This document shows, piece after piece, positions 1-14,312 of a stretch of DNA of 64,000 nt. Made by a program: the position numbers and the translations under genes. The DNA lies in assembly GCF_002287075.1 (NCBI RefSeq), contig NZ_NSKE01000007.1:124001-188000 (forward strand), written 5' to 3'. Source of the stretch: Fodinibius salipaludis. GTDB taxonomy: Bacteria > Bacteroidota > Rhodothermia > Balneolales > Balneolaceae. Position 1 is the stretch's first letter, and the number at the start of each line of letters is the position of its first letter. The notes below the pieces were generated by a model. It saw nothing but the letters and a program-made list of their open reading frames with translations, ran no database searches and had not been told where the DNA came from.

Positions 1-297
1 TATTTAAAAGGAAGCCCCAAAGAGGCAGAACCGCACCTTCGCAAATCATTGCAAATGCGACTTGAAGCATATGACGCAGATGATGTGCGCGTAGCCCAAT
101 CGCAGGTTAAACTTGGGATTTGCCTTACAAAGCTGAAGGAGTATACTGAGGCGGAAGAGCACCTCCAAAATGGGTATCAAAAGCTTAAGAAAAAACGCGG
201 ATCATCGAACAGCCAAACCACAAGTGCCCGAAAATACCTGGTACAACTGTATGAGCAATGGGATAAAAAAGATATGCCCGATCAATATCGGCAGTAG
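1..297 (+). CDS. C-terminal part of a TPR protein, probably a Ser/Thr kinase-TPR (partial, 5' end outside window)
   Basis: The reading frame is open from base 1 and ends at TAG 295-297. It encodes about 98 residues of helical repeats (E-A-E-P-H-L-R-K-S-L-Q, then Y-T-E-A-E-E-H-L), the kinesin-light-chain-like TPR type. The ending with a Leu-Tyr-Glu-Gln-Trp segment is typical of the C-terminus of bacterial STK-TPR proteins. It resembles the TPR half of the kinase at 7678-10257 in style, so I infer a second kinase whose catalytic part lies left of the window. The first Met (49) is internal, not a start. A free-standing TPR protein is the alternative. Confidence 0.7.
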   Translation, partial: YLKGSPKEAEPHLRKSLQMRLEAYDADDVRVAQSQVKLGICLTKLKEYTEAEEHLQNGYQKLKKKRGSSNSQTTSARKYLVQLYEQWDKKDMPDQYRQ

Positions 298-657: not shown

Positions 658-1521
658 TCATTCATTCCAGAAGCTATAGTATTTAGCCACTTCTTGGTAA
701 TTAGTTATATCCAAGTCTTTAGGAATTATCTTATCAATTGCTTGTTTTGACATATCAACTGTATTTGATGATTCTATACGTACAATTTCTATTTCATATT
801 GGTCTCCATTGCCAGAATTTTCACTAAATGCAAAATTTACGACTGAGCTTGCTTGGTTCCATCTATGACGTACGTTATATTTTTCATCTCCTGCATAACC
901 AAAGCCAGGAACAGGAATTCTGGAGTCTCCAGGCCCTATTAAATAAACCAACCATGCACTTTCGATCATCTCCGTTCGAGTTACATTTGTTATTTCTTTA
1001 ATAACATTTGGGGTGGCTCCAAAATCATGCGAGGGAAAAAGATAGCGTGTTACATTGGCATTCCCATCGGCCCCTTTCAGATTAATGGGGGATCCCCATC
1101 CCTGATCTGTCTTGGGACCGTACATATCGTAATTGGCTTTATCCAGATAAAAATCACCAACAGAACCTTTGGATGAAGCAGGTGCTCCCGTTCCGGCGTA
1201 AATCTGGCTGCCATCTTCACCATCCTGCCCATCTTCGCCCATCAACACAATAATAGGATTGCCCCAGCCATCAGTATCTTTGGGGCCATACATCTCACCG
1301 TTATTGGTATTGATGTAATAGTCTCCTTCCGCTCCGATATCGGCACCGGGTGCGCCCTGTCCGGAATACATCATGCTGCCGTCTTCACCGGCCGGACCAA
1401 CAGGGCCTTGCGGACCTTCAGGGCCCTGAGGACCTTCAGAACCGGCCGGGCCCTCGCATCCGGTAAATCCCAACATTATCGATACTAATACAAGTAATGA
1501 TATTTTTAATAATCGCTGCAT
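658..1521 (-). CDS. collagen-like surface lipoprotein, C-terminal type A
   Basis: 287 residues. A signal peptide ends in a lipobox (L-G-F-T-G-C), with Cys22 as the likely lipidated residue. Residues about 23-49 are eight Gly-X-Y triplets (G-P-A, G-S-E, G-P-Q, G-P-E and so on), a collagen-like stretch. Two copies of a roughly 45-residue module follow (about 53-95 and 109-150), each with a G-D-Y/F-Y core and a Y-G-P-K..G-W-G-x-P-I core. The last 130 residues form a domain shared only with the 3485-4366 paralog (ending I-P-K-D-L-D..N-Y-Q-E-V-A). The protein is probably exposed on the outer membrane; function is unknown. It has its own promoter (1566-1595) and terminator, so it is a monocistronic member of the array. 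Confidence 0.85.
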   Translation of the reverse strand: MQRLLKISLLVLVSIMLGFTGCEGPAGSEGPQGPEGPQGPVGPAGEDGSMMYSGQGAPGADIGAEGDYYINTNNGEMYGPKDTDGWGNPIIVLMGEDGQDGEDGSQIYAGTGAPASSKGSVGDFYLDKANYDMYGPKTDQGWGSPINLKGADGNANVTRYLFPSHDFGATPNVIKEITNVTRTEMIESAWLVYLIGPGDSRIPVPGFGYAGDEKYNVRHRWNQASSVVNFAFSENSGNGDQYEIEIVRIESSNTVDMSKQAIDKIIPKDLDITNYQEVAKYYSFWNE

Positions 1522-1565
1522 ATTACATCTGTTTCATTAATATTAATTTCATTCACACAGTATAA

Positions 1566-1595
1566 TGCGTACTATCAGGCGAAAGGTGGACAAAT
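1566..1595 (-). promoter_or_regulatory. ECF-type promoter motif, copy 1
   Basis: Minus strand ATTTGTCC (1588-1595), 16 nt, then TACGCA (1566-1571), about 45 nt before the ATG at 1521. The same two boxes with the same spacing recur upstream of the other lipoprotein genes. I infer recognition by the ECF sigma at 7096. Confidence 0.7.
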
Positions 1596-1630
1596 AAAAA
1601 ACCTGCAATAACTTTCACACTATTGCAGGC
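1596..1630 (-). terminator. terminator of the 1651-3297 gene
   Basis: Minus strand hairpin with arms GCCTGCAATA and TATTGCAGG, followed by a U run. It abuts the -35 box of the next cassette directly, so transcription units are packed end to end. Confidence 0.85.
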
Positions 1631-1650
1631 AAGTCGTTATTTCCCAGATA

Positions 1651-3297
1651 TTATTTTACTGGACTCCAATCCGGAAATCGGTCATTTGCACTGTTATTTG
1701 AAAGGTTTACAGGACTTCCAGTACCGTCAGCATTTATTTTATAAATTTCATCATTCCCGTCACGATCGGAATCGAATATGATTTCTGTCCCATCCCGTGA
1801 CCAGCTGGGATATTCATCGCTTGCCGAATTGTTTGTAATACGCTGGGTATTACTGCCGTCCGCATTCATTACATATATTTCTTTATTTCCATCACTACTA
1901 ACAAAAGCTATCTTGCTGCCGTCTGGGGACCATACAGGATCTCCATCACTCGAATTATTGCTTGTCAACTGCTTTACATTACTGCCATCGGGATTCATCG
2001 TATAAATATCTAAACCTGCATTTGGCTTCTTACTAACAAAGACAATTTTACTACCATCAGGAGACCAACTGGGGCTTTGCTCATTGGCACTGTTGTTGGT
2101 AAGCCGCTGTTCGTTACTACCGTCGGGTGCAATGGTATATATTTCTCCACTACCGCTGCGATCATCCGCAAACACAATATTAGAATCATCAGGTGCCCAA
2201 CTACCGTTAAATGTTTCTCCGGAAGAACTTGTAACCTGTCGAATATTTGAACCGTTAGCATTAACAATAAACAGATTAAAATTTCCATTACGGTAACTGG
2301 AAAAAAGTACACGGGTTCCTGAATAAGAAATCTGTGGCAAATAATCCGTTGCCGGATCATTGGTCAATGCTTGTTGATTTGCCCCATCTGGGTCCATCAA
2401 ATAAATATCAGCAACAGAACCTCTATTTGATTGAAAAGCAATTCGATCATTTATAACGGCTCGGCATTCAATATCAAAGGATGTAGATGTGGTATCCCCA
2501 GCACTAATACTTACACTACGTGGGTTTTTACCCGAGACACTACAATTCTGTGCAATACCCCAAAGTGATAGGTTATAGCTTCCTTTCTGCAGATCTTTGT
2601 AATATATCTTATCGTTAATATCAATAGACTTGCCCGATGAACCATCTACAGCCACCGAATAACCATCAGGGTCTTGATCGTCTCCGCTGGACTGTGTAAT
2701 CACTTCAAGTACACCGTCAGTAATCACATCAAAGTCGGGACCCGTTGTGGACTTTTGTTTAACAGTAACCTTGATTGGACCATCCGTTGCTCCTTCCGGC
2801 ACTTCGGTAACTAACTTATCCTTGGAGGTACTATTTACCGCGGCATCAGTACCATTAAAAACAATGTCAATATCTGAAGCACTGCCACTAAAATTCATGC
2901 CCTTGATCGTCACTTTCGTGCCCACCGTACCGCTGTCGGGCTCTACCGAGCTGATGCCCGGGGCTTTGGCTTCAACCATAAAGCTGGGACCCGAAGCAGT
3001 TTCTCCTCCTACGCTAACTTCCACCGGGGCCGACCCTTCGGAAAGGCTTTCCGGTACCTCCGTCTGGATTTGATCCTCCGTAGCGCTGATGAGCGTAGCA
3101 GAGGTTCCGCCAAATGTAACATTCATTTCTCCATGCGGCCGGAACCCTTTGCCTGAGATGGATACCGAAGTACCCGGTGGGCCGCTTTCAGGCTGGACAC
3201 TGGTAATTTCCGGGTTCGGACCTCCGGAATCTGATCCGCAGGAAGCCACCAGCAAGATCGTAATAAATAGTACTGATAGTTGTAACAGTCGTTTCAT
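1651..3297 (-). CDS. lipoprotein with two IPT/TIG domains and a TolB-like (PD40) beta-propeller
   Basis: 548 residues. Signal peptide with lipobox L-V-A-S-C (Cys20). Two IPT/TIG immunoglobulin-like domains follow (about 30-108 and 112-190, each opening with a Pro-x-S-G-P/T-V-G-T-x-V-x-I core). A roughly 85-residue linker domain rich in Thr/Ser comes next (G-D-T-T-S-T-S-F-D at its end). Six propeller blades of the PD40 type cover about 280-548, with repeated I-Y-x-M-x-x-D-G-S-N and S-W-S-P-D-G-S-K-I motifs. Such propellers bind peptides or glycans, or act as scaffolds; the ligand here is unknown. Residues 1-278 are closely shared with the 10599-12128 gene. Monocistronic cassette with the shared promoter upstream. 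Confidence 0.85.
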   Translation of the reverse strand: MKRLLQLSVLFITILLVASCGSDSGGPNPEITSVQPESGPPGTSVSISGKGFRPHGEMNVTFGGTSATLISATEDQIQTEVPESLSEGSAPVEVSVGGETASGPSFMVEAKAPGISSVEPDSGTVGTKVTIKGMNFSGSASDIDIVFNGTDAAVNSTSKDKLVTEVPEGATDGPIKVTVKQKSTTGPDFDVITDGVLEVITQSSGDDQDPDGYSVAVDGSSGKSIDINDKIYYKDLQKGSYNLSLWGIAQNCSVSGKNPRSVSISAGDTTSTSFDIECRAVINDRIAFQSNRGSVADIYLMDPDGANQQALTNDPATDYLPQISYSGTRVLFSSYRNGNFNLFIVNANGSNIRQVTSSSGETFNGSWAPDDSNIVFADDRSGSGEIYTIAPDGSNEQRLTNNSANEQSPSWSPDGSKIVFVSKKPNAGLDIYTMNPDGSNVKQLTSNNSSDGDPVWSPDGSKIAFVSSDGNKEIYVMNADGSNTQRITNNSASDEYPSWSRDGTEIIFDSDRDGNDEIYKINADGTGSPVNLSNNSANDRFPDWSPVK

Positions 3298-3337
3298 AAC
3301 AAATAGGTTTGTTCACATTAAACATTACAAAGTACCA

Positions 3338-3367
3338 TGCGTACTGGTAGGCAGGATGTGGACAAAT
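3338..3367 (-). promoter_or_regulatory. ECF-type promoter motif, copy 2
   Basis: ATTTGTCC (3360-3367), 16 nt, TACGCA (3338-3343) on the minus strand, 41 nt upstream of the ATG at 3297. Matches the array consensus in both boxes. Confidence 0.7.
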
Positions 3368-3390
3368 TTTTTGAGTTGCCAATAAACCAT

Positions 3391-3420
3391 AAAAAAAGCC
3401 CTGCCAAAAACGACAGGGCT
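3391..3420 (-). terminator. terminator of the 3485-4366 gene
   Basis: Minus strand AGCCCTGTCG hairpin with CAGGGCT, then seven U. Its stem, loop and tail are identical in sequence to the terminator at 12215-12244, which shows that cassette junctions were duplicated. Confidence 0.85.
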
Positions 3421-3484
3421 CATTTGATCTTTAGAAAAGGAAGATTCGTTAACTACGGGCAATTTTTTCTTTGAAAATTACCAT

Positions 3485-4366
3485 TTACTGATAGAACCCA
3501 TAGTATTCAGCTACTTCTTGATAGTTTGAGGTATCTAAATCTTTTGGCAAAATTGTTTCTGTTACTTGCTTTCTGTGATCTTCATTATTACTTGCTTCTA
3601 TCTGAACAATTTCAATACGATCGTACTGCTCTCCTTGAACATTTGGATCACACGAAATTGCAAAAACAACTTCCTCACGACTATCATAGTAATGATGCTC
3701 ACTTGTATAAAAAGTATTCCCATTATTACCATAACCTGGTATAGACCAATAAGCCTCATCAACATTTGGACTGGATTGGCCAACCAGATAAACCAGCCAA
3801 GCACTTTCTACCATTTCAGCTTTATCATCCACTGGGATATTTAAGGGATTATAATTATTAGAACTAAAATCATATCCGGGGAAAATATACCGAGTTACAT
3901 TGGCATTCCCGTCGGCCCCTTTCAGATTAATGGGGGATCCCCAACCCTGATCAGTCTTGGGTCCATACATATCGTAATTGGCTTTATCCAAATAAAAATC
4001 ATCAACTTTGCCCAACGAGGGATCGGGCGCGCCGCTCCCCGCATGAATCTGACTTCCATCTTCACCATCTTGTCCGTCTTTACCCATCAGCACCATAATA
4101 GGATTGCCCCAGCCATCAGTATCTTTGGGACCATACATCTCACCGTTATTGGTATTGATGTAATAGTCTCCTTCTGCTCCGATATCGGCACCGGGTGCGC
4201 CCTGTCCAGAATACATCATGCTGCCGTCTTCACCGGCCGGACCAACGGGGCCTTCGGGACCTTCCAGACCCTGAGGCCCTTCAGAACCGGACGGGCCCTC
4301 GCAGGCTATAAAAATGGATATTGAACAAACTAACAGTAGCGTCACTATTCGTGTTATTCGTTTCAT
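3485..4366 (-). CDS. collagen-like surface lipoprotein, C-terminal type A
   Basis: 293 residues. Lipobox I-F-I-A-C (Cys22), collagen-like Gly-X-Y run at about 23-49, two G-D-Y/F-Y..Y-G-P-K..G-W-G-x-P-I modules, then a 135-residue C-terminal domain paralogous to that of 658-1521. The coding DNA of the head (around 4090-4290) is nearly identical to 1250-1430, suggesting recent duplication or gene conversion, while the tails have diverged strongly. Probably a surface-exposed trimeric or adhesive protein, by analogy with bacterial collagen-like proteins; no direct evidence of a ligand. Own promoter and terminator. Confidence 0.85.
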   Translation of the reverse strand: MKRITRIVTLLLVCSISIFIACEGPSGSEGPQGLEGPEGPVGPAGEDGSMMYSGQGAPGADIGAEGDYYINTNNGEMYGPKDTDGWGNPIMVLMGKDGQDGEDGSQIHAGSGAPDPSLGKVDDFYLDKANYDMYGPKTDQGWGSPINLKGADGNANVTRYIFPGYDFSSNNYNPLNIPVDDKAEMVESAWLVYLVGQSSPNVDEAYWSIPGYGNNGNTFYTSEHHYYDSREEVVFAISCDPNVQGEQYDRIEIVQIEASNNEDHRKQVTETILPKDLDTSNYQEVAEYYGFYQ

Positions 4367-4409
4367 AGTTATTCTTTTTTTTCGAATTAATGAATCTAAC
4401 GTAGCAACC

Positions 4410-4439
4410 TGCGTAACAGGTAGCAGAATGTGGACAAAT
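4410..4439 (-). promoter_or_regulatory. ECF-type promoter motif, copy 3
   Basis: ATTTGTCC (4432-4439), 16 nt, TACGCA (4410-4415) on the minus strand, 44 nt before the ATG at 4366. Confidence 0.7.
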
Positions 4440-4455
4440 CGATTCCGATGGAAAT

Positions 4456-4488
4456 AAAAAAGCCTGCAGCAAATAAATTACTGCAGGC
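4456..4488 (-). terminator. terminator of the 4511-6640 gene
   Basis: Minus strand GCCTGCAGTA hairpin with TGCAGGC and a U run, 22 bases past the stop codon. Confidence 0.85.
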
Positions 4489-4510
4489 AAGGAAACAGCC
4501 AGTTTAAAAA

Positions 4511-6640
4511 TTATTTACTGTTAGACATAGTGCATTCCAATGTCATGCCGGTTATCCACATATCTTTGCCTCCCTTGGGATCTACATTGTCATCATCCCC
4601 GCGCCCCGGCCAACTCGAAGTCGTCACGCCCAACGTAAATACATTCACCTCGCCATTGGCATCTCGGTAAGCTTCGATGGCCGTAGGAAAACCCCGTCCT
4701 TTCTTATCATCTTCGAATTCAAAAAAGGTAGACTTTTTACTACCATCGATGAAAAGCGGGGTTCCATCATCTGCATAAATGCCAAGGTATGGAAGGCCCC
4801 CAATCTCTGACGCATTTTGGCCCGCAAGAACAACTCCTCCACCAGGGACTCGTACGCCATCTACATATTTTGTGGATCCGCTATCATCGAACTTCTGCTG
4901 ATGAACCCACTTTTCCCCGCCACTTGAACTGAGGCGCTGCACATACGCATCCTTGATATATACATTTTTATTTGCTTCAACCGGAGTGCCCGTATTCCCA
5001 TACACAACAGCTCCTCCATCCGGCATCGGAATAGGCTGTTTAATTTGATTGGTCACCTGTTCGCTTGACGCTTCGATTTGTAAGCCACTGTTAAGTCTTG
5101 CAAATACAGTGTTGCCATCATCATTTCTTGCTCCAAGAAATACCCGGCTTTGACCGTCGGTAGCAATACTGTATGGGGCCGTGTATGCCTCAATTTGTTT
5201 TACTGTTTGTAGCGTACCGTTCTGCTGGAATTTGGCAATAGCCACATCATGAGATCCCTTATTTGGTTCTTTATTATTCGGTGTGAAAGGACCGCTCATT
5301 CTAATAGAGACCAGAATTTCACCCGACGGCAACACGGCAACCGTTTCATTATTGAGCTCATCAAGGTCAGGAGAACCAAATTGCTGGGCCCATCCAAGGC
5401 TGCCAGAACCTGCATCAAGACGGGCCAATACGGCGTCTCTACCTCCTGTATTGGAATTGCCATCTTTCAAAGTTGAAAAGTGATACTCTAATTTCGCTTC
5501 TCCCAAGCCTTGGTTTGAAACCCCACGTTCTCCAACGATATATACGCTATTACCATCAACTTCAATGCCTCTCCATGTCGTTGACTTGAGTTTTGAATCA
5601 AAATTTGATTCCCAGACTTTATCTCCTTCAGGATCATATTTTGCCACAACTCCTCGATCACGCAGCACCATGTATAAATTCCCATTGGAATCCATCGCCA
5701 TATCCTGCGACTTATCATCTTTATCGGAGGTTGTCAATCCTTGGCTAACCCATTCAAGGGTTGCATCAAGCTGGATATTATTACCATAACAGGCTTGTAA
5801 TTCTGTTATGATTGAAAAATCAGCATCATCAGACAGCTCTCCCACTGTGATACTTACCGCTCCGCCTGATGCTCCTTCGGGAACTTTTGCCTTTAACGCA
5901 TCCTTGGCTGCACTATCAACGGTGGCTTGTACCCCGCCAAACGTCAAAACATTATCCGAAGCATTTTTACTGAAATTTTTGCCTTCGATAAGAACCTCGG
6001 CTCCTACAACTGCTGTATCTGGCATGACCGATGTAATTTTTGGTCCTTTTACATCAAAATCCGGTCCTGTGGTTGACTTATTATTCACTGTTATTTCGAT
6101 CGGACCATCCGTAGCATTCAAAGGCACCTGAGTTTCAATTTGCTCTTCATCAGCACTATTAACCGGGGCCGTTGTACCATTGAATGTTATGGTGTTCTCA
6201 GCAGATGTTGATGAAAAGTTTACCCCTTTAATGGTCACCTTTGTACCTACAGGACCGTTACCAGGTTCTACGGAGCTAATACCCGGAGCACTGGCTTCTA
6301 CCGTAAATGCTGGACCTTTTACCGTATCCTGATCAACGATAACTTTAACCTTTCCACTTGTAGCGCCCTCTGGTACTTTTGTTTTAATAAAATCAGTAGC
6401 TGCAGAATCAACAGAAGCTTCCACGTCATTAAAAATAACATTATTACCTGAGCTGTGATCGCTGAACCCCTTTCCCTCAATAGTAACTAATGTTCCCTCT
6501 GGTCCTGTAGTAGGATTTACTGAACTAATACTAAGCTGTGGAGATGGATCGGGCCCTACACCTCCTTCTTTATCACTACATGCTATGGTGAACCCTGATA
6601 CGATAAAAATGATGAATAGAAATTTTGATATTAATTTCAT
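4511..6640 (-). CDS. lipoprotein with three IPT/TIG domains and an SBBP/NHL-like propeller
   Basis: 709 residues. Signal peptide with lipobox F-T-I-A-C (Cys21). Three IPT/TIG domains lie at about 36-112, 115-195 and 198-278, each with a P-G/D-x-x-x-V-G-T/A-x-V-x-I-x-G core. The rest (about 290-700) looks like a different propeller from its neighbours: repeats of the type D-S-N-G-N-L-Y-M-V..V-A-K-Y-D-P-E-G and A-V-L-A-R-L-D-A-G-S-G, as in SBBP/NHL-like repeats. The array therefore combines one kind of N-terminal stalk with different sensing or binding heads. Likely exposed on the cell surface. Promoter motif immediately upstream, terminator downstream. Confidence 0.85.
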   Translation of the reverse strand: MKLISKFLFIIFIVSGFTIACSDKEGGVGPDPSPQLSISSVNPTTGPEGTLVTIEGKGFSDHSSGNNVIFNDVEASVDSAATDFIKTKVPEGATSGKVKVIVDQDTVKGPAFTVEASAPGISSVEPGNGPVGTKVTIKGVNFSSTSAENTITFNGTTAPVNSADEEQIETQVPLNATDGPIEITVNNKSTTGPDFDVKGPKITSVMPDTAVVGAEVLIEGKNFSKNASDNVLTFGGVQATVDSAAKDALKAKVPEGASGGAVSITVGELSDDADFSIITELQACYGNNIQLDATLEWVSQGLTTSDKDDKSQDMAMDSNGNLYMVLRDRGVVAKYDPEGDKVWESNFDSKLKSTTWRGIEVDGNSVYIVGERGVSNQGLGEAKLEYHFSTLKDGNSNTGGRDAVLARLDAGSGSLGWAQQFGSPDLDELNNETVAVLPSGEILVSIRMSGPFTPNNKEPNKGSHDVAIAKFQQNGTLQTVKQIEAYTAPYSIATDGQSRVFLGARNDDGNTVFARLNSGLQIEASSEQVTNQIKQPIPMPDGGAVVYGNTGTPVEANKNVYIKDAYVQRLSSSGGEKWVHQQKFDDSGSTKYVDGVRVPGGGVVLAGQNASEIGGLPYLGIYADDGTPLFIDGSKKSTFFEFEDDKKGRGFPTAIEAYRDANGEVNVFTLGVTTSSWPGRGDDDNVDPKGGKDMWITGMTLECTMSNSK

Positions 6641-6686
6641 GGTAACAAACTGATCTTTTGTTCAAATTAATCCTTGTATAGTATGT

Positions 6687-6716
6687 TGCGTAATAGCAGA
6701 CTAAAGGCGGACAAAT
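6687..6716 (-). promoter_or_regulatory. ECF-type promoter motif, copy 4
   Basis: ATTTGTCC (6709-6716), 16 nt, TTACGCA box (6687-6692) on the minus strand, 47 nt before the ATG at 6640. Confidence 0.7.
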
Positions 6717-7095
6717 TGAATAAATTAGACCTGATTTATCCCTTTCCATTTAATTATTGCACATCCCAATAAATGGGATGAATTTTTATACGGCTATATC
6801 GATCAACAACGGTAAAAAATGCCCCAATAATTGACATATTCTCACATAGAAATCAGCTGAATAGCAGAAAAGAGATATAAAAAGTATACCGGAGTAATGA
6901 CCCACTTTATCAACATTCACATCTTTGCTGTCAACTATTCAAGCGGCTAAAAAATCGAACTTTGTAGAGCAGTAACAGAGGCAAATTCAGGAATATAAAA
7001 GTCGATCGGTTAGACTATTCAATTATTTGCCTTTATAGTTTTTTATTAAAATTATTTCCTAAATACTTTTACACACAATTATTAGCCCGTTTGCG
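6717..7095. other. gene-free divergent region between the lipoprotein gene and the sigma gene
   Basis: About 380 bases that must hold the start signals of the plus-strand sigma-kinase genes. I find no copy of the TTTGTCC/TACGCA motif facing the sigma gene, so simple autoregulation by the same promoter is not visible. No ORF worth reporting and no clear housekeeping promoter. Confidence 0.4.
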
Positions 7096-7659
7096 ATGAG
7101 TAAAGAAACTCGTGTCACGAAACTACTACAAAAAGTTCAGGCGGGATCTGAACAGGCCTACGACGAGCTATTCCCGATAGTTTATCAGGAGTTAAAACGT
7201 CTTGCATTCTCCAAACTTAAATCTGAAGATCGCGATATTACCGTATCAGAAACGGCGTTAGTCCATGAGGTCTATCTGAAGATGATTGACCAAACCAGCC
7301 TTGAACTGAAAAATAAAAATCACTTTTTCGCAATAGCAGCCCGATGCATGCGACAAATTCTGGTAGACCATGCCCGAAAAAAGAAAGCCGAGAAACGCGG
7401 CGGGGATCAAAAAGACGTTACCTATATCGACGAATTACTAAAAGCCCATCAGGAGTCTAAAGAACTCATCAATCTCGATAAAAAATTAGACGAACTTGCC
7501 CAACTGGATGAACGGATGGCTGATGTGGTAACACTCCGTTATTTCGGACAAATGACGGTTCACCAGACTGCCAAGGCGCTGGATGTATCAGAACGCACTG
7601 TCAAACGCGACTGGGCCAAGGCCCGAGGATGGCTTTATAAAGAATTAAAAAAGGAATAA
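7096..7659 (+). CDS. ECF-type RNA polymerase sigma factor, ECF43-like (kinase-linked)
   Basis: 187 residues. Sigma-2 spans about 10-98, with R-x-I-L-V-D-H-A-R-K-K at its end. Sigma-4 spans about 130-185, with a helix-turn-helix (Q-T-A-K-A-L-D-V-S-E-R-T-V-K-R-D-W). The family signature T-x-L-V-H-E-x-Y-L is present (53-61). In ordinary ECF sigmas the place just before L-V is acidic (D-A-E-D) and contacts core polymerase; here it reads S51-E52-T53-A54. In the Vibrio EcfP/PknT system, phosphorylation of a Thr at this place by a Hanks kinase activates the sigma. No anti-sigma gene is adjacent; instead a Hanks kinase follows 18 nt downstream, so phospho-activation is the natural inference. The eight promoter-like motifs in the array are its candidate targets. 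Confidence 0.88.
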   Translation: MSKETRVTKLLQKVQAGSEQAYDELFPIVYQELKRLAFSKLKSEDRDITVSETALVHEVYLKMIDQTSLELKNKNHFFAIAARCMRQILVDHARKKKAEKRGGDQKDVTYIDELLKAHQESKELINLDKKLDELAQLDERMADVVTLRYFGQMTVHQTAKALDVSERTVKRDWAKARGWLYKELKKE

Positions 7660-7677
7660 CTCGGAAGTGCTTTTCGT

Positions 7678-9075
7678 ATGGATCAGAAACAATGGAAGAA
7701 AATCAACGACATTGTAGATACCGCTCTTGACCTAAATGAAAAAGAACGAGCAACCTATATACAAGAGGAATGTGAAGGCAACGAGCAGATCAAGCGGCAG
7801 GTTACCGAACTTCTCTCCTCAATCGAGCAATCCGATACGGAAAATTATTTGGAGGGACTCGAAAATTATCCCCGACACTTGGCCCGGGAGATTTCGGAAC
7901 AAGAAACTCGTAAGAACACGTCTTCCCTCGTCGGTACTACGATCGACAGCTACAAACTTATCGAGCTCATTGGCCACGGCGGAATGGGATCGGTATTTCT
8001 GGGTGAACGCGCAGACAAGGCCTACACTCAAAAAGTAGCCTTAAAATTAATGCGCCGAGGCATGGATACGCCTTCAAATATTGCTCGATTTAAGCGTGAG
8101 CGCAATATACTGGCCAAGCTCAATCATCCCAATATTGCGCGACTGTTAGACGGCGGCATGACTGAAGAAGGACTGCCCTACCTGGTGATGGAATATGTAG
8201 AGGGTACTCCGCTTTATACCTATTGTGATGACAATAAACTTTCGTTAGAAAAGCGTCTGGATCTTTTTAAATGCATTTGTAAAGCGGTACATCACGCCCA
8301 CAACAATGCTATTATCCACCGGGATCTTAAGCCTTCAAACATCCTGATCACAGAAAATGGTCAGGTGAAAATTCTCGACTTCGGTATTGCCAAATTGCTG
8401 GAGCCCGAAGATCCCGATACAAAATTATTTGAAACACAAACCGGGGCACGGATTCTGACTCTCGGCTATGCCGCGCCTGAACAAGTTGAGCATCAAACTA
8501 TTACTACAAAAACCGATATCTACACGCTGGGCATTCTTTTATACGAATTGTTAACGGGCGTTCATCCTTTTGATATGGATGAGAAAGATCTTACTGAGAT
8601 AGAAGATCTCATCCGTAATAAACTACCATCCAAACCTTCTGCCAGATATAAAGAGCTCAATACTAATCAGCAACATGAGAATGCCCGGCTTCGCAAGCTA
8701 TCTGCCGATAATTTGACACATACATTACAGGGCGATCTGGATGCGATCGTAATGAAGATTCTGCGCAAAGAGCCGGAAGCTCGTTATGATGCCGTAACGC
8801 AATTATTGGAGGATCTGGATCGTCGAGAGCAGAACCGTCCGATTATTGCACGGGAAGATACGTTCAGATATAAAACTTCAAAGTTTTTTCGCCGATATAA
8901 AACACCGTTATCCACGGCCGCTGGCATTCTTCTAATTATCGCTGGAATTATATTCTACTATTCGTGGCAGATTACCCAGGAACGGAATATTGCTCAGACC
9001 GAAGCAAAAAAAGCTGAGCAAGTCACTTCTTTTTTAACTGATCTCATCGAAAGCAATTACCCTGAAAATGCATAA
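7678..9075 (+). CDS. Hanks-type Ser/Thr protein kinase, truncated by an in-frame TAA
   Basis: 465 residues as it stands. N-terminal helical segment (1-80), then a kinase domain: Gly-rich loop G-H-G-G-M-G-S-V (99-106), Lys123 in V-A-L-K, catalytic H-R-D-L-K-P-S-N (Asp216), D-F-G (Asp234). All catalytic residues are present. One membrane helix at about 410-430 is followed by a short coiled stretch. The frame stops at TAA 9073-9075 and then stays open in the same frame to 10257 with TPR repeats, so the ancestral protein was a kinase - membrane helix - TPR sensor of about 859 residues. The start ATG lies 18 nt after the sigma gene stop, giving a two-gene operon. The truncated product keeps the kinase and the anchor but loses the sensor. 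A sequencing error, true nonsense mutation or readthrough cannot be told apart here. Confidence 0.88.
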   Translation: MDQKQWKKINDIVDTALDLNEKERATYIQEECEGNEQIKRQVTELLSSIEQSDTENYLEGLENYPRHLAREISEQETRKNTSSLVGTTIDSYKLIELIGHGGMGSVFLGERADKAYTQKVALKLMRRGMDTPSNIARFKRERNILAKLNHPNIARLLDGGMTEEGLPYLVMEYVEGTPLYTYCDDNKLSLEKRLDLFKCICKAVHHAHNNAIIHRDLKPSNILITENGQVKILDFGIAKLLEPEDPDTKLFETQTGARILTLGYAAPEQVEHQTITTKTDIYTLGILLYELLTGVHPFDMDEKDLTEIEDLIRNKLPSKPSARYKELNTNQQHENARLRKLSADNLTHTLQGDLDAIVMKILRKEPEARYDAVTQLLEDLDRREQNRPIIAREDTFRYKTSKFFRRYKTPLSTAAGILLIIAGIIFYYSWQITQERNIAQTEAKKAEQVTSFLTDLIESNYPENA

Positions 9076-10257
9076 GGGGATACTATTACCGTTCGGGAAT
9101 TCCTTAATCAGGGATATGACCGAGTACGAAAACTTGACCAATCTCCCGAAGTAAAAGCAAATGTTATGCAGGTTATGGCCCACACTTATCGTTCTCTGGG
9201 AGAAATCGACAAAGCGGATCCTCTTATGCAACAAGTTGTAGAAATACAGGACACTTTGAGCATACCCCTTGCAGAAAAGGCTGAAGCTTATAATATAAGA
9301 GGGTTAATACTGCGCGATAAAGGGGATTTTGATGAAGCGGAAAAAGCAATGGATCAAGCTGTAACCCTTTTTCAAAAAGCAGGAGAATCTGATACCGAAG
9401 AATACAGCAAACTTCTGGCCGATCTTGCCTACGTAAAACGAATTAACGCTAATTATGACGAAGCGCTATCAATGGTGCAGGAAGCTATAAATATTAAAGA
9501 AAATATTCATAACCGTACGCACCTGCAATTGGCTGAACCCTATTACATTTTGGCATCAATACTGAGAAAACAAGACAACTATGAGCAAGCAAAAATAAAT
9601 CAATTTAAATCGCTCGATATCCTGCAAGCTAACATAAATGGCCCTCATCCCGGCAAAGCAAATAACTTCAACAATTTAGCCATTATTTATAAAGAACAAG
9701 ACAGCTTGGTGAAAGCCGGTGAGCATTATCAAAGATCACTTGCAATGTCAGAAAAATTGTATGGCCCGTCACATCCCGAAATTGTCACTGTTAGCAGCAA
9801 TTTCTCCAACATACTCTTAAAGCAGGGTAAAATCAATTCTGCTAAAACAATGATAAAACGGGCATTACAAATTACCCGTAATGAGTTAGGCAAAACGCAT
9901 CCCACTATGGGACAACATTTAAGCGACTATGCCTATATTTTTAGATCAAAAAAACAATATTCAAAGGCCGATTCGCTTTACGACCAAGCGCTACACATTC
10001 TTAAAAAACACTATCCTGATAATCACCCCAGAATCGTAGGTGTGCTACATAATAAAGCAGAAAATGCCTATCGCAGTGGACAAATAGAACAAGCGGAAAC
10101 TTTATTCCGAAAAGTACTATCTATCCGTACGGAGCGTTATGATTCTTCAAGTGAGGACATTCAAATACCTTTGCAACAGCTGCTTGATATACTTGAATCT
10201 AAGGGAAACATCCAAGAAGCAGATTCACTGCGAAATATTTTTTCTTCAACACAATAA
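9076..10257 (+). pseudogene. TPR sensor half of the split kinase
   Basis: In frame with the kinase, directly after its TAA. The first codons after the stop (G-D-T-I-T-V-R-E-F-L) are the usual linker between the membrane helix and TPRs in STK-TPR proteins, so no bases appear lost. The rest, about 390 residues, is a run of kinesin-light-chain-like TPRs (for example F-D-E-A-E-K-A-M and Y-D-E-A-L-S-M-V). The first in-frame ATG is at 9166, inside the first repeat, without a convincing ribosome site. It may therefore be untranslated, translated by readthrough, or expressed as a separate soluble TPR protein. The rest of the frame is intact, so the break is recent or not real. Confidence 0.7.
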
Positions 10258-10297
10258 ACTCTTTCAACAGACCACTCAGTAGTTTGGTAGTTGTAAC

Positions 10298-10332
10298 AAA
10301 AAGCCCGTAGCAGCCTTCATACTGCTACGGGC
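10298..10332 (-). terminator. terminator with no gene in front of it
   Basis: Minus strand GCCCGTAGCAG hairpin with an 8-nt loop and CTGCTACGGGC, an 11-bp perfect stem followed by a U run. The only minus-strand signal upstream is the orphan promoter motif at 10396-10425. Confidence 0.8.
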
Positions 10333-10390
10333 AGATGATTATTTTACGTATTCGTATTTAACCGTATTCACTTAATGAAGCTCTATATAA
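10298..10390 (-). ncRNA. candidate small RNA from an orphan array promoter
   Basis: A promoter motif of the lipoprotein array (10396-10425) and a strong terminator (10298-10332) enclose about 60-90 bases without an ORF or start codon in a useful context. Either a cassette lost its gene and kept the signals, or the sigma factor drives a roughly 90-nt RNA. No similarity to a known sRNA was recognised. Confidence 0.3.
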
Positions 10391-10395
10391 CAACA

Positions 10396-10425
10396 TATGT
10401 AACGGTAGACGGAATGGGGACAACT
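10396..10425 (-). promoter_or_regulatory. ECF-type promoter motif, orphan copy 5
   Basis: Minus strand GTTGTCC (10418-10424), 16 nt, TACATA (10396-10401). The spacing is the same as in the other copies and the region between boxes matches (CATTCCG..ACCGTTAC), but the -10 box is changed at two places. Confidence 0.5.
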
Positions 10426-10525
10426 TCTCCTCGGCTGGCTGTTTCTTGGTTGCAGCATCAGAGTCTTGTTTAACCGAAGCTTTCGAGGGTGTGAGAACCA
10501 GATAAGAACAGAATAAGAAACAAAC

Positions 10526-10560
10526 AAAAAACCTGCAGTAGTTCTCAGACCACTGCAGGT
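10526..10560 (-). terminator. terminator of the 10599-12128 gene
   Basis: Minus strand ACCTGCAGTG hairpin with ACTGCAGGT arms and a U run, about 40 bases past the stop codon. Confidence 0.85.
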
Positions 10561-10598
10561 AAATTTAGTTTTTTTTATCTCTCAAGCATTATGTATCA

Positions 10599-12128
10599 TC
10601 AGTTCTGAGGCCCCCAAGAAGGTCCGCCATCAAGAGCCGGATCATCGGTTAGATTAATTAAATTGTTACCTGCTTTCGACATCTTGTAAAGATCTCGGTT
10701 ACTGGGTAGTTCAGACTGGAAAATTATGTGCTCACCATCCGGTGACCATGCTGGTTCAGAATCACGTACTGAGTTAATGGTTAACTGTTGTAAGCCAGAA
10801 CCATCAGGGTTTATTTTGTAGATATCATAATCGCCATCTCGGTTAGAGCGAAAGGCAATTTTTGATCCGTCTGGCGACCAATCCGGGGAATCATTATAAG
10901 CTGAATTGTTTGTCAGGCGCTGTACCGAGGAACCATCGGCATTCATCGTATATAGCTCACCAGTACTTTCATCGCGGTTGGAAATAAAAGCTATTTCACT
11001 GCCATCCGGCGACCATGTTGGTGCAACGTCTCCCGTTGAGTTATTAGTAATTCTGGTGAGGTTAGATCCGTCAGCATCCATGGTATAAATCTCTCTATTG
11101 CCATCCCGTTCACTACTAAACAGAATTTTTGTACCGTCTGGCGAAACATCAGGATCAAATTCATATGCAGGATCAGTTGTAAGACGAAACGGAGATGAGC
11201 CATCCGAACTCATTATATAAATGTCAAAATTACGACTACTACCGGAAGCACGGTCGGAATCAAAGACAATCTTATCCGTCGCCACCGCCTGACAACTTAC
11301 ATCAAATGTCGTCGAGGTGGTATCGCCGGCCGTGATGCTTACGCTGCGCGGGTTGTTGCCGGAGACTGTGCAGTTCTGGGCAATGCCGGACAGCTCCACG
11401 TCGTGGCTGCCTTTCTGCAGGTCAACAAAGAACTTGTCATCGTTCGCTTTAAACAGCTTGCTGGCCGAGCCATCTACGGTACCGGTATAGCCATTGGAAT
11501 CCTGATTTTTACCACTGGTACTGGTAATCAACTTCAGAGTGCCCTCAGTAATCACGTCAAAATCCGGACCGGTGGTGCTTTTTTGTTTGACGGTTACCTC
11601 AATCGGTCCGTCCGTAGCGCCCTGCGGTACTTCGGTCAGCAGCTGGTCCTCCGCTGCACCGTTAACCGGCGCCTGGGTGCCATTAAACGCAATCGTGTTC
11701 TCGGAGGCTGTCGCCGAAAAGTTCATGCCGTTGATGGTCACTTCCGTGCCCACCGTACCGCTGTCGGGCTCCACAGAACTGATCCCCGGGGCCGCCTGCT
11801 CGACGGTAAACGACGGACCTGAAGCGGTCTGGTCGCCGACGGTCACCTCTACCGGCACCGAGCCTTGCGAAAGCCCGTCTGGGACCTCAGTTTCGATGGT
11901 CGATTCGGTGGCACTGTTGACCGGTGCGGTCGTGCCATCGAAGGTCACGGTATTGCTGGCCGCCTCGGGGCTAAACCCGGAGCCGTTGACCGTTACCATC
12001 GTCCCCGGCGGGCCGCTGTCGGGCTGCAGCCCGTCGATCTGGGGATTAGGCCCGCCGGAATCCGTACCACACGAGCCAAAAGCAAATACTATAGCAACAC
12101 AAATTGTCATAAGTAGGAATCGTCTCAT
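10599..12128 (-). CDS. lipoprotein with two IPT/TIG domains and a TolB-like (PD40) beta-propeller
   Basis: 509 residues. Lipobox A-F-G-S-C (Cys20). Two IPT/TIG domains (about 28-108 and 112-190), the same linker domain as the 1651-3297 paralog (Q-K-G-S-H-D-V-E-L-S-G-I-A-Q-N-C), then about five PD40 blades (I-Y-T-M-D-A-D-G-S-N, S-P-D-G-S-E-I). The N-terminal 270 residues are clearly closer to that paralog than the propellers are. Base composition of the stalk-coding part (11300-12060) looks more G+C-rich than the propeller part and neighbours, which hints at a mosaic origin. Probable surface lipoprotein, function unknown. Confidence 0.85.
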   Translation of the reverse strand: MRRFLLMTICVAIVFAFGSCGTDSGGPNPQIDGLQPDSGPPGTMVTVNGSGFSPEAASNTVTFDGTTAPVNSATESTIETEVPDGLSQGSVPVEVTVGDQTASGPSFTVEQAAPGISSVEPDSGTVGTEVTINGMNFSATASENTIAFNGTQAPVNGAAEDQLLTEVPQGATDGPIEVTVKQKSTTGPDFDVITEGTLKLITSTSGKNQDSNGYTGTVDGSASKLFKANDDKFFVDLQKGSHDVELSGIAQNCTVSGNNPRSVSITAGDTTSTTFDVSCQAVATDKIVFDSDRASGSSRNFDIYIMSSDGSSPFRLTTDPAYEFDPDVSPDGTKILFSSERDGNREIYTMDADGSNLTRITNNSTGDVAPTWSPDGSEIAFISNRDESTGELYTMNADGSSVQRLTNNSAYNDSPDWSPDGSKIAFRSNRDGDYDIYKINPDGSGLQQLTINSVRDSEPAWSPDGEHIIFQSELPSNRDLYKMSKAGNNLINLTDDPALDGGPSWGPQN

Positions 12129-12161
12129 AAATCCAAAGATTTATTATCATTTATGATTCTT

Positions 12162-12191
12162 CACTTAGTTACAAGCGGAATGAGGACAAAT
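12162..12191 (-). promoter_or_regulatory. array promoter motif with diverged -10, copy 6
   Basis: The -35 side (ATTTGTCC, 12184-12191) and the next 12 bases are identical to the copy at 13227-13256. At the -10 position (12162-12167) the minus strand reads TAAGTG instead of TACGCA. It may be weak or inactive. Confidence 0.45.
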
Positions 12192-12214
12192 TTTATAAGT
12201 AACCTGTGATCCAT

Positions 12215-12244
12215 AAAAAAAGCCCTGCCAAAAACGACAGGGCT
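12215..12244 (-). terminator. terminator of the 12273-13181 gene
   Basis: Minus strand AGCCCTGTCG..CAGGGCT hairpin plus seven U, the same stem, loop and tail as at 3391-3420. Confidence 0.85.
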
Positions 12245-12272
12245 CTTTAGCTTAATACGCTATTCGTACGTT

Positions 12273-13181
12273 CTACTCTTGAATGCCAAAGCGCTTTTTT
12301 GCCTCATGATACGGCATTCCCTTGATTTCATCTTTTGTCAACTTACTTTTAGCCGCTACGCCGCCGGGGATAATGACATACCGAAACTTTGTTTCTACTG
12401 TCATTGGGGCGGGCTCCGTTTGCTTATTATCCAAGTAGAAAAAGGCAATCTGTATATTTTGTACCGAAAACTGATGATAAAAACTGGTACCCAAATTGAA
12501 CCCAGGTAAATCTGTCATGGGCAAAGCACGAATATGTTCAAATGATGGCCCTACATCTCTCAAATCTGCGTATACATTTACCACTCCTTGATCTACGATA
12601 TCTTCCGTTAGAGCATTGGCTGAGATATCATGGTAACGTAGACTATCACCAGCTGTTTCTCCAGCAGTCCATCCAGATTCTCCAGCAGGTATCGTAATCC
12701 AGGAAGAATACATGACATTTGCCGTTCCTTTCAGATTGATAGGAGTTCCCCAGCCGCTTTCGGTTTTCGGACCATACAGGTCGTAACTGTCTTCGTCCAG
12801 GTAATAATCGCCTACGGCTCCAAGCGAGGCATCAGGCGCGCCGCTGCCTGCGTGTATCTGACTGCCGTCTTCTCCGTCTTGACCATCTTGACCGGGAGGT
12901 CCTTGCAGGCTGATGGGGGTTCCCCAGCCGTCATCATTCTTCGGGCCATACAACTCTCCTGTCGTTTCATCTAAATAGTAATCTCCATTTTCACCAAGAC
13001 TTGCATCAGGTGTACCGTCCCCGGCGTGTATCATACTCCCATCTTCACCGGCCGGACCAACGGGGCCTTCTGGTCCTTCTGGACCTTGTGGGCCTTCAGA
13101 ACCGGACGGTCCCTCGCAGGCTATAAAAATGGTCATTGAACAAACTAACAGTAGCGTCACTATTCGTGTTATTCGATGCAT
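12273..13181 (-). CDS. collagen-like surface lipoprotein, C-terminal type B
   Basis: 302 residues from the ATG at 13181. The frame is open 12 codons further up, but the paralog at 14240 starts at the same M-H-R-I-T-R-I-V and the promoter motif lies just upstream. Lipobox I-F-I-A-C (Cys22), collagen-like Gly-X-Y at about 23-49, two Y-G-P-K..G-W-G-T-P-I modules with a second short Gly-X-Y run (G-P-P-G-Q-D-G-Q-D-G-E-D-G) between them. The C-terminal domain (about 150-302) differs from type A: S-S-W-I-T-I-P, R-Y-V-I-I-P-G-G, ending K-K-R-F-G-I-Q-E. Surface location is inferred from the lipobox and family style; no enzyme motif seen. Confidence 0.85.
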   Translation of the reverse strand: MHRITRIVTLLLVCSMTIFIACEGPSGSEGPQGPEGPEGPVGPAGEDGSMIHAGDGTPDASLGENGDYYLDETTGELYGPKNDDGWGTPISLQGPPGQDGQDGEDGSQIHAGSGAPDASLGAVGDYYLDEDSYDLYGPKTESGWGTPINLKGTANVMYSSWITIPAGESGWTAGETAGDSLRYHDISANALTEDIVDQGVVNVYADLRDVGPSFEHIRALPMTDLPGFNLGTSFYHQFSVQNIQIAFFYLDNKQTEPAPMTVETKFRYVIIPGGVAAKSKLTKDEIKGMPYHEAKKRFGIQE

Positions 13182-13226
13182 AGTTACTAATCGTTTTTTG
13201 GAATTAATGAATACCACATAGTAACA

Positions 13227-13256
13227 TGCGTAACGGCAAGCGGAATGAGGACAAAT
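13227..13256 (-). promoter_or_regulatory. ECF-type promoter motif, copy 7
   Basis: Minus strand ATTTGTCC (13249-13256), 16 nt, TACGCA (13227-13232), 45 nt before the ATG at 13181. Its position supports the internal start chosen for that gene. Confidence 0.7.
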
Positions 13257-13279
13257 TTTATGAGTAGTCTGCGATCCAT

Positions 13280-13310
13280 AAAAAAAGCCCTGCCGAAAAC
13301 GACAGAGCCT
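13280..13310 (-). terminator. terminator of the 13338-14240 gene
   Basis: Minus strand AGGCTCTGTCG hairpin with CGGCAGGGCT and a U run; a slightly degenerate version of the 12215 terminator with one mismatch in the stem. Confidence 0.75.
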
Positions 13311-13337
13311 TTTAGCGATTTACGCTATTTTAGAGTT

Positions 13338-14240
13338 TTACTCTTGAATACCAAAGCGTTTTTTTACCTCATTATACGGCATTTCCTTTATTTCATCTTT
13401 TGTCATCTTGCTTTTAGCCGCTACCCCGCCCGGGATAATGACATACCGAAACTTTGTATCGACAGTGAGTGGCCCCAGATCAGTACCTTTGGCAGACGGG
13501 TCATAATAGGCAATCATCACATTCTGTAACGAAAACTGATAATATAAACTGACTGCGAAACCGGGTAAATTTGACATAGGGAGAGCATAAATCTGATCAA
13601 TGTCAGGTTCTACATCCCTAAAATCAGCATACACATTCACCACCCCTTGACCTACGATATCTTCCGTAAGAGCATTGGCTGCGATATCATGATAGCGAAT
13701 ACTATCACCACTTACTTCCTCGGCACTCCATTCAGATGCTTCACCAGGTACCGTAATCCAAGAAGAGTACATCACATTAGCCGTTCCCTTCAAGTTTATC
13801 GGGGTATCCCAACCGTTTTCGGTCTTCGGACCATATAGATCGTAGCTGTCTTCATCCAGGTAGTAGTCACCTACCGACCCCAATGACGCATCAGGGGCGC
13901 CACTTCCAGAGTGAATCTGGCTGCCATCCTCACCATCTTGCCCATCTTGTCCCGGAGGGCCTTGCAAACTTATTGGAGTTCCCCACCCATCATCGTTCTT
14001 TGGGCCATACAGCTCTCCTGTCGTTTCATCTAAATAATAATCCCCATTTTCACCCGTGGTGGCATCGGGTGCATCCTGCCCGGAATACATCATGCTGCCG
14101 TCTTCACCGGCCGGACCAACGGGGCCTTCTGGTCCTTCTGGACCTTGTGGCCCTTCGGAACCGGACGGCCCCTCACAAGCCATAAAAATTGAAATTGAAC
14201 AAACTAACAGTAGCGTTACTATTCGTGTTATTCGATGCAT
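13338..14240 (-). CDS. collagen-like surface lipoprotein, C-terminal type B
   Basis: 300 residues. Lipobox I-F-M-A-C (Cys22), Gly-X-Y run at about 23-49, two Y-G-P-K modules separated by a second Gly-X-Y run, and a C-terminal domain of type B shared with the 12273-13181 gene. The two lie in tandem and are clearly a recent duplication. The head-coding DNA around 14080-14170 is nearly identical to the other three collagen-like genes. This is the last cassette of the array. Its promoter is the most diverged, so it may be expressed differently or weakly. Confidence 0.85.
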   Translation of the reverse strand: MHRITRIVTLLLVCSISIFMACEGPSGSEGPQGPEGPEGPVGPAGEDGSMMYSGQDAPDATTGENGDYYLDETTGELYGPKNDDGWGTPISLQGPPGQDGQDGEDGSQIHSGSGAPDASLGSVGDYYLDEDSYDLYGPKTENGWDTPINLKGTANVMYSSWITVPGEASEWSAEEVSGDSIRYHDIAANALTEDIVGQGVVNVYADFRDVEPDIDQIYALPMSNLPGFAVSLYYQFSLQNVMIAYYDPSAKGTDLGPLTVDTKFRYVIIPGGVAAKSKMTKDEIKEMPYNEVKKRFGIQE

Positions 14241-14282: not shown

Positions 14283-14312
14283 TACGTCACTGCGAATTAA
14301 AAGAGATCAAAT
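14283..14312 (-). promoter_or_regulatory. diverged array promoter motif, copy 8
   Basis: Minus strand ATTTGATC (14305-14312), 16 nt, GACGTA (14283-14288), 42 nt before the ATG at 14240. The position and spacing fit the array motif, but both boxes are altered. Confidence 0.35.

Follow-up and report, generated by a model that had tools for sequence, protein, structure and literature searches.

ECF sigma factors of the ECF43 group are marked by a Hanks-type kinase gene adjoining the sigma gene and by the lack of an anti-sigma gene (PMC13147305). Only for a few bacteria has the function of such pairs been established; the known outputs include type VI secretion and polymyxin resistance. In Xanthomonas citri, the kinase PknS phosphorylates the ECF43 sigma EcfK, which keeps a charge in its region 2.2 motif (QATE) and yet is kinase-activated (PMC13147305). 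The membrane-tethered construct PknS(1-449) is phosphorylated without a stimulus, unlike the full-length kinase, and did not restore function in complementation (PMC13147305). In EcfP/PknT of Vibrio parahaemolyticus, also an ECF43 pair, the sigma is likewise kinase-gated and a Thr replaces an acidic residue of the DAED motif.

The window analysed here, the whole stretch of 64,000 nucleotides, comes from a Fodinibius/Aliifodinibius-group genome (Balneolaceae) of 3.58 Mb and carries a locus that resembles these systems (Table 1). As an earlier note on this DNA had stated, the sigma and kinase genes are 18 nt apart and no anti-sigma gene was found near the pair, the neighbours being xerC, lipoprotein genes, a TonB-dependent receptor gene and a gamma-glutamyltransferase-like gene. 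The pair therefore shows the ECF43 hallmark, in the same adjacent arrangement as EcfK/PknS, and differs in this from the canonical RpoE/RseA system, where a similar two-domain ECF sigma controlling envelope proteins is paired with an anti-sigma; here a kinase takes that place. Exactly three sigmas of the genome score above the TIGR02999 cut-off; behind each comes a kinase gene, and all three modules adjoin collagen-like lipoprotein genes: one that ends at the left window edge (sigma, L004 12902-13468; kinase-TPR, L004 13484-16297; clade I), one in the window and one on contig C1. The arrangement xerC - sigma - kinase-TPR - collagen/IPT lipoprotein also recurs among genus relatives, and the three modules of the genome share it. 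Lack of conserved synteny, which the earlier note had named as a refutation, was thus not observed. Kinase loss was observed elsewhere in the family, where an intact sigma of G021 (C22, L229 552-1408) is followed by a 68-aa kinase remnant alone; in G043, no kinase was found adjoining the sigma. In G028 (C21), a stand-alone TPR ORF resembling a detached sensor half (L249 3690-4793) lies directly before a sigma-kinase module, and no kinase part belonging to it was found.

Table 1. Features of the sigma-kinase locus and its lipoprotein array, in window coordinates.
Feature	Position	Strand	Remarks
3' tail of intact paralogous kinase-TPR gene (937 aa)	1..297	+	its sigma starts 3.1 kb before the window
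Collagen-like lipoprotein	658..1521	-	lipobox, Gxx repeats; class I promoter
Class I promoter	1566..1594	-	TTTGTCC-N18-CGCA
Terminator-like hairpin	1601-1630		similar to that at 3396..3421
IPT/TIG + PD40 propeller lipoprotein	1651..3297	-	
Class I promoter	3338..3366	-	
Terminator-like hairpin + T run	3396..3421	-	between cassettes
Collagen-like lipoprotein	3485..4366	-	
Class I promoter	4410..4438	-	
Terminator-like hairpin	4462-4488		similar to that at 3396..3421
IPT/TIG + SBBP-type propeller lipoprotein	4511..6640	-	divergent from sigma gene
Class I promoter	6687..6715	-	
ECF sigma factor, 187 aa, sigma2-sigma4 only	7096..7659	+	PF07638/TIGR02999
Hanks-type kinase, 465 aa	7678..9075	+	Pfam Pkinase E=2.6e-52
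In-frame TAA severing kinase + TM from TPR half	9073..9075	+	frame runs uninterrupted on to 10257
Severed periplasmic TPR sensor region	9076..10257	+	TPR_12 E=6e-58
Terminator-like hairpins	10303-10332, 10531-10560		similar to that at 3396..3421
IPT/TIG + PD40 propeller lipoprotein	10599..12128	-	
-35 half alone (TTTGTCC)	12184..12190	-	gene 10599-12128; -10 half missing at expected spacing
Collagen-like lipoprotein	12273..13181	-	likely start 13181; ORF opens 13217
Class I promoter	13227..13255	-	
Collagen-like lipoprotein	13338..14240	-	PF01391
Class II-type promoter	14283..14311	-	TTTGATC-N18-CGTA, gene 13338-14240

The window sigma matched PF07638 (E=1.5e-49) and scored 208.9 bits against TIGR02999 over its whole length, above the curated cut-off of 126.15 bits, and is thus an ECF-type sigma of this family; no related solved structure was found at E<=0.001. 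Its region 2.2 motif, ahead of LVHE, reads S51-E52-T53-A54, in which the usual DxxD is replaced and a Thr stands at the EcfP/EcfK phosphosite (consensus QTTA), the position of T53 being set via the following LVHE motif and not by aligning EcfK itself. EcfK has the same combination of a Thr at region 2.2 position 3 (T51, which carries the activating phosphate) and a Thr in the linker. T53 is a Thr in all 50 family sigmas compared, and linker T109, which may correspond to EcfK T106, in 47 of the 50. By these likenesses, the window sigma probably belongs to the ECF43 group. One negative charge is retained in region 2.2, as E52 here and, in many relatives, as a Glu at position 4 (E54), like EcfK, whereas the motif of EcfP (STTA) has no such Glu. 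Since E52 leaves this charge, the sigma without phosphate may not be fully inactive. The retained charge, together with the G021 sigma that has almost no kinase, would also fit a sigma that is always active or set by its own expression alone, with the kinase acting on other substrates. We regard this as rather unlikely, given that the Thr at the precise position of the ECF43 phosphosite never varies, that sigma and kinase are almost universally paired, and that EcfK is activated by its kinase despite its own charge (PMC13147305).

The window kinase has an N-terminal extension of ~85 aa, a kinase domain at ~91-372 and a transmembrane (TM) helix at ~409-431, with the catalytic motifs VALK, HRDLKPSN, DFG and APE all intact, and among solved structures it comes closest to X. 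citri PknS (PDB 9EED, E=5e-48). The domain order of PknS, namely an N-terminal extension of ~83 aa, kinase domain, TM helix and periplasmic TPRs, matches that of this kinase family: in the two paralogues of the genome (937 and 839 aa) and in nearly all relatives examined, kinase, TM helix and TPRs form one protein of 790-940 aa. The window copy, in contrast, does not hold these parts in one chain. An in-frame TAA falls 465 codons into the ORF, slightly past the membrane helix, at a point that is read through by the two paralogues and seven aligned relatives. The sequence up to 10257 is therefore no intact kinase gene, a point absent from the earlier note; after the sigma come a kinase with its TM helix, a stop codon and a severed TPR half. 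This half has its first in-frame ATG at 9166, lacks a signal peptide of its own and shows no further stop across 393 codons. Because the stop codon removed the sensor half of the kinase, it would be unsafe to take the window copy for a normally gated switch. An assembly error could account for the TAA. The nearest relative of the TPR half is only 38% identical and synonymous sites were saturated, so that dN/dS was discarded as a means of dating decay.

The window kinase may be on its way to decay, or it may have become a sensorless form that is always on. For the former, we see roughly even chances that the sigma controls the lipoproteins while its kinase is a decaying pseudogene, in which case either the intact paralogue (L004 13484-16297) serves both sigmas or the window sigma stands idle. 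This possibility concerns the fate of the window copy and is compatible with our best explanation, of which it forms a variant. Such decay is consistent with the occurrence of the TAA in the window copy alone, the intact clade I paralogue just upstream, the kinase remnant beside the G021 sigma and the failure of truncated PknS to complement (PMC13147305), whereas the intact catalytic motifs and TM helix and the long stop-free frame of the severed half argue against it. As for the latter, the kinase is naturally cut close to where PknS was cut in the laboratory construct PknS(1-449), of which it is a counterpart. It is nevertheless doubtful, in our estimate, that the stop made it a natural sensorless, membrane-bound and always-on form that locks the regulon on, so that it would make a constitutive and inducible pair with the intact, signal-gated paralogue beside it.

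Seven lipoprotein genes, all on the minus strand, flank the sigma-kinase pair, four on the left and three on the right; four encode collagen-like and three IPT/propeller lipoproteins. The remainder of the window has 41 ORFs, of which only two encode lipoproteins by the same rule. Since terminator-like hairpins stand between several of the cassettes, these look separately transcribed; 26 such hairpins were found versus 13.8 expected. Each of the collagen-like lipoproteins (within 658-14240) has a short Gxx stretch, two 'GDYYxxxxxGxxYGPKxxxGWGxPI' repeats and a variable C-terminal head. One collagen-like lipoprotein was modelled with AlphaFold (mean pLDDT 72; C-terminal head ~88), and the model matched no solved fold at E<=0.001.

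Two promoter classes were distinguished, class I (TTTGTCC-N18-CGCA) and class II (TTTGAGC/GATC-N18-CGTA), located mostly 60-100 nt ahead of the lipoprotein start codon. The earlier description of lipoprotein cassettes with a common promoter on both sides of the pair holds for the flanking and for five of the seven genes, which carry the class I motif; one of the remaining two has the sister motif and the other the -35 half alone. The motif was defined on lipoprotein upstream regions, so that matches in the array are not an independent test. In the genome as a whole, ten of 20 strict matches are intergenic and all ten lie ahead of lipoprotein genes, including an unlinked one (C35:41475); a binomial test on these ten was discarded, since the motif had been defined on most of the sites, and column-information values, which are circular for the boxes themselves, were left out of the evidence. 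As a spacing control, a 19-nt spacer instead of 18 gave one match versus six in the reversed control. A looser motif with two mismatches was tried for extending the regulon and rejected, its counts being near control. The unlinked class I promoter (C35:41475-41503; L008 1501) stands 71 nt before the gene of a 397-aa lipoprotein, which has a 'TSTSGxxxDxxGYT' segment in common with the window propeller lipoproteins.

In relatives, unlinked intergenic matches mostly precede exported or lipoprotein genes; in genera that lack the sigma, the matches examined were in coding sequence or before no gene. Two matches lie 73 nt ahead of the starts of lipoprotein genes. Class I lipoprotein promoters were present in nine of nine genomes with a clade I sigma versus none of four without (Fisher p=0.0014, uncorrected for relatedness, the genomes being related and their counts not independent events). 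Where a class II gene stands inside a clade I array, the genome also has a clade II sigma. Furthermore, at residue 167 of the -35 recognition helix, all 11 clade I sigmas, that of the window included, have Arg and all 24 clade II sigmas have Ser, and G075, from another genus, combines Arg at this position with class I motifs before exported genes. These comparisons support the proposal of a regulon well: a two-class promoter code appears to tie sigma clades to lipoprotein genes, unlinked ones included. A common promoter could also arise by the copying of whole cassettes (promoter, signal peptide and gene), read by another sigma, with the sigma-kinase pair an unrelated neighbour. The cassettes do resemble one another around the start codon and paralogue clusters often spread through duplication, but unlinked genes for lipoproteins with no homology to one another (collagen-like, propeller and PKD/beta-helix) are preceded by the same two boxes at a constant distance, the promoter class tracks sigma clade and -35 helix residue across genomes, and a class is absent from lipoprotein genes where the matching sigma clade is absent. 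We therefore consider copying a very improbable explanation.

In the neighbouring genus g3, class II motifs stand ~40-72 nt before secreted non-lipoprotein genes (L184, L185, L187), indicating that class II output differs by genus. In G016, a class II motif (L182 1501-1529; C2:90451-90479) was noted 211 nt upstream of a kinase start, in the gap that separates the kinase gene from its clade II sigma gene, and feedback on the kinase gene is possible there. No class I or II motif was found at the sigma genes themselves, and hence no autoregulation loop was seen.

Taken together, these data are probably best explained by a kinase-gated sigma family of the Fodinibius group that drives a lipoprotein regulon, with the kinase of the window copy cut. 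The link between sigma and lipoproteins is well supported by comparative evidence at the sequence level, whereas gating by the kinase is likely by analogy with the described pairs: the region 2.2 Thr and the PknS-like kinase fit ECF43-type gating as earlier proposed, a proposal weakened for the window copy by the loss of its sensor half. Where the kinase is intact, it would sit in the membrane with its TPR domain facing outward, sense something in the envelope and phosphorylate the neighbouring sigma at T53, perhaps also at T109, and the phosphate would give region 2.2 the negative charge needed for RNA polymerase binding. The activated sigma would then read promoters whose -35 GTCC and -10 CGCA boxes are separated by 18 nt. 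Each such promoter, whether in the home array or at an unlinked site, would drive a single lipoprotein gene of the collagen-like, IPT/propeller or a related type, the products being presumably located at the surface. The sister sigma clade would read GAGC/CGTA promoters of similar genes. The window sigma itself would either run on a sensorless kinase or be served by the intact paralogue just upstream.

The predicted lipoprotein output sets this family apart from EcfK/PknS, with its type VI secretion system, and from EcfP/PknT, with its polymyxin-resistance regulon; our literature search, which covered few subscription journals, found no collagen-like lipoproteins under sigma/kinase control, in agreement with the earlier view that such an output is undescribed. 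Between clade I modules, the kinase halves are 55-72% identical and the TPR halves mostly 20-52%, which suggests that the sensor half has been swapped or evolves fast while kinase, sigma and output stay constant. A switch of this kind appears here to be connected to a lipoprotein family of collagen-like and propeller types, with sensors possibly exchanged on a constant output. Because two promoter classes and one -35 helix residue separate the sister sigmas, the specificity of kinase-gated sigmas would be open to single-substitution tests.
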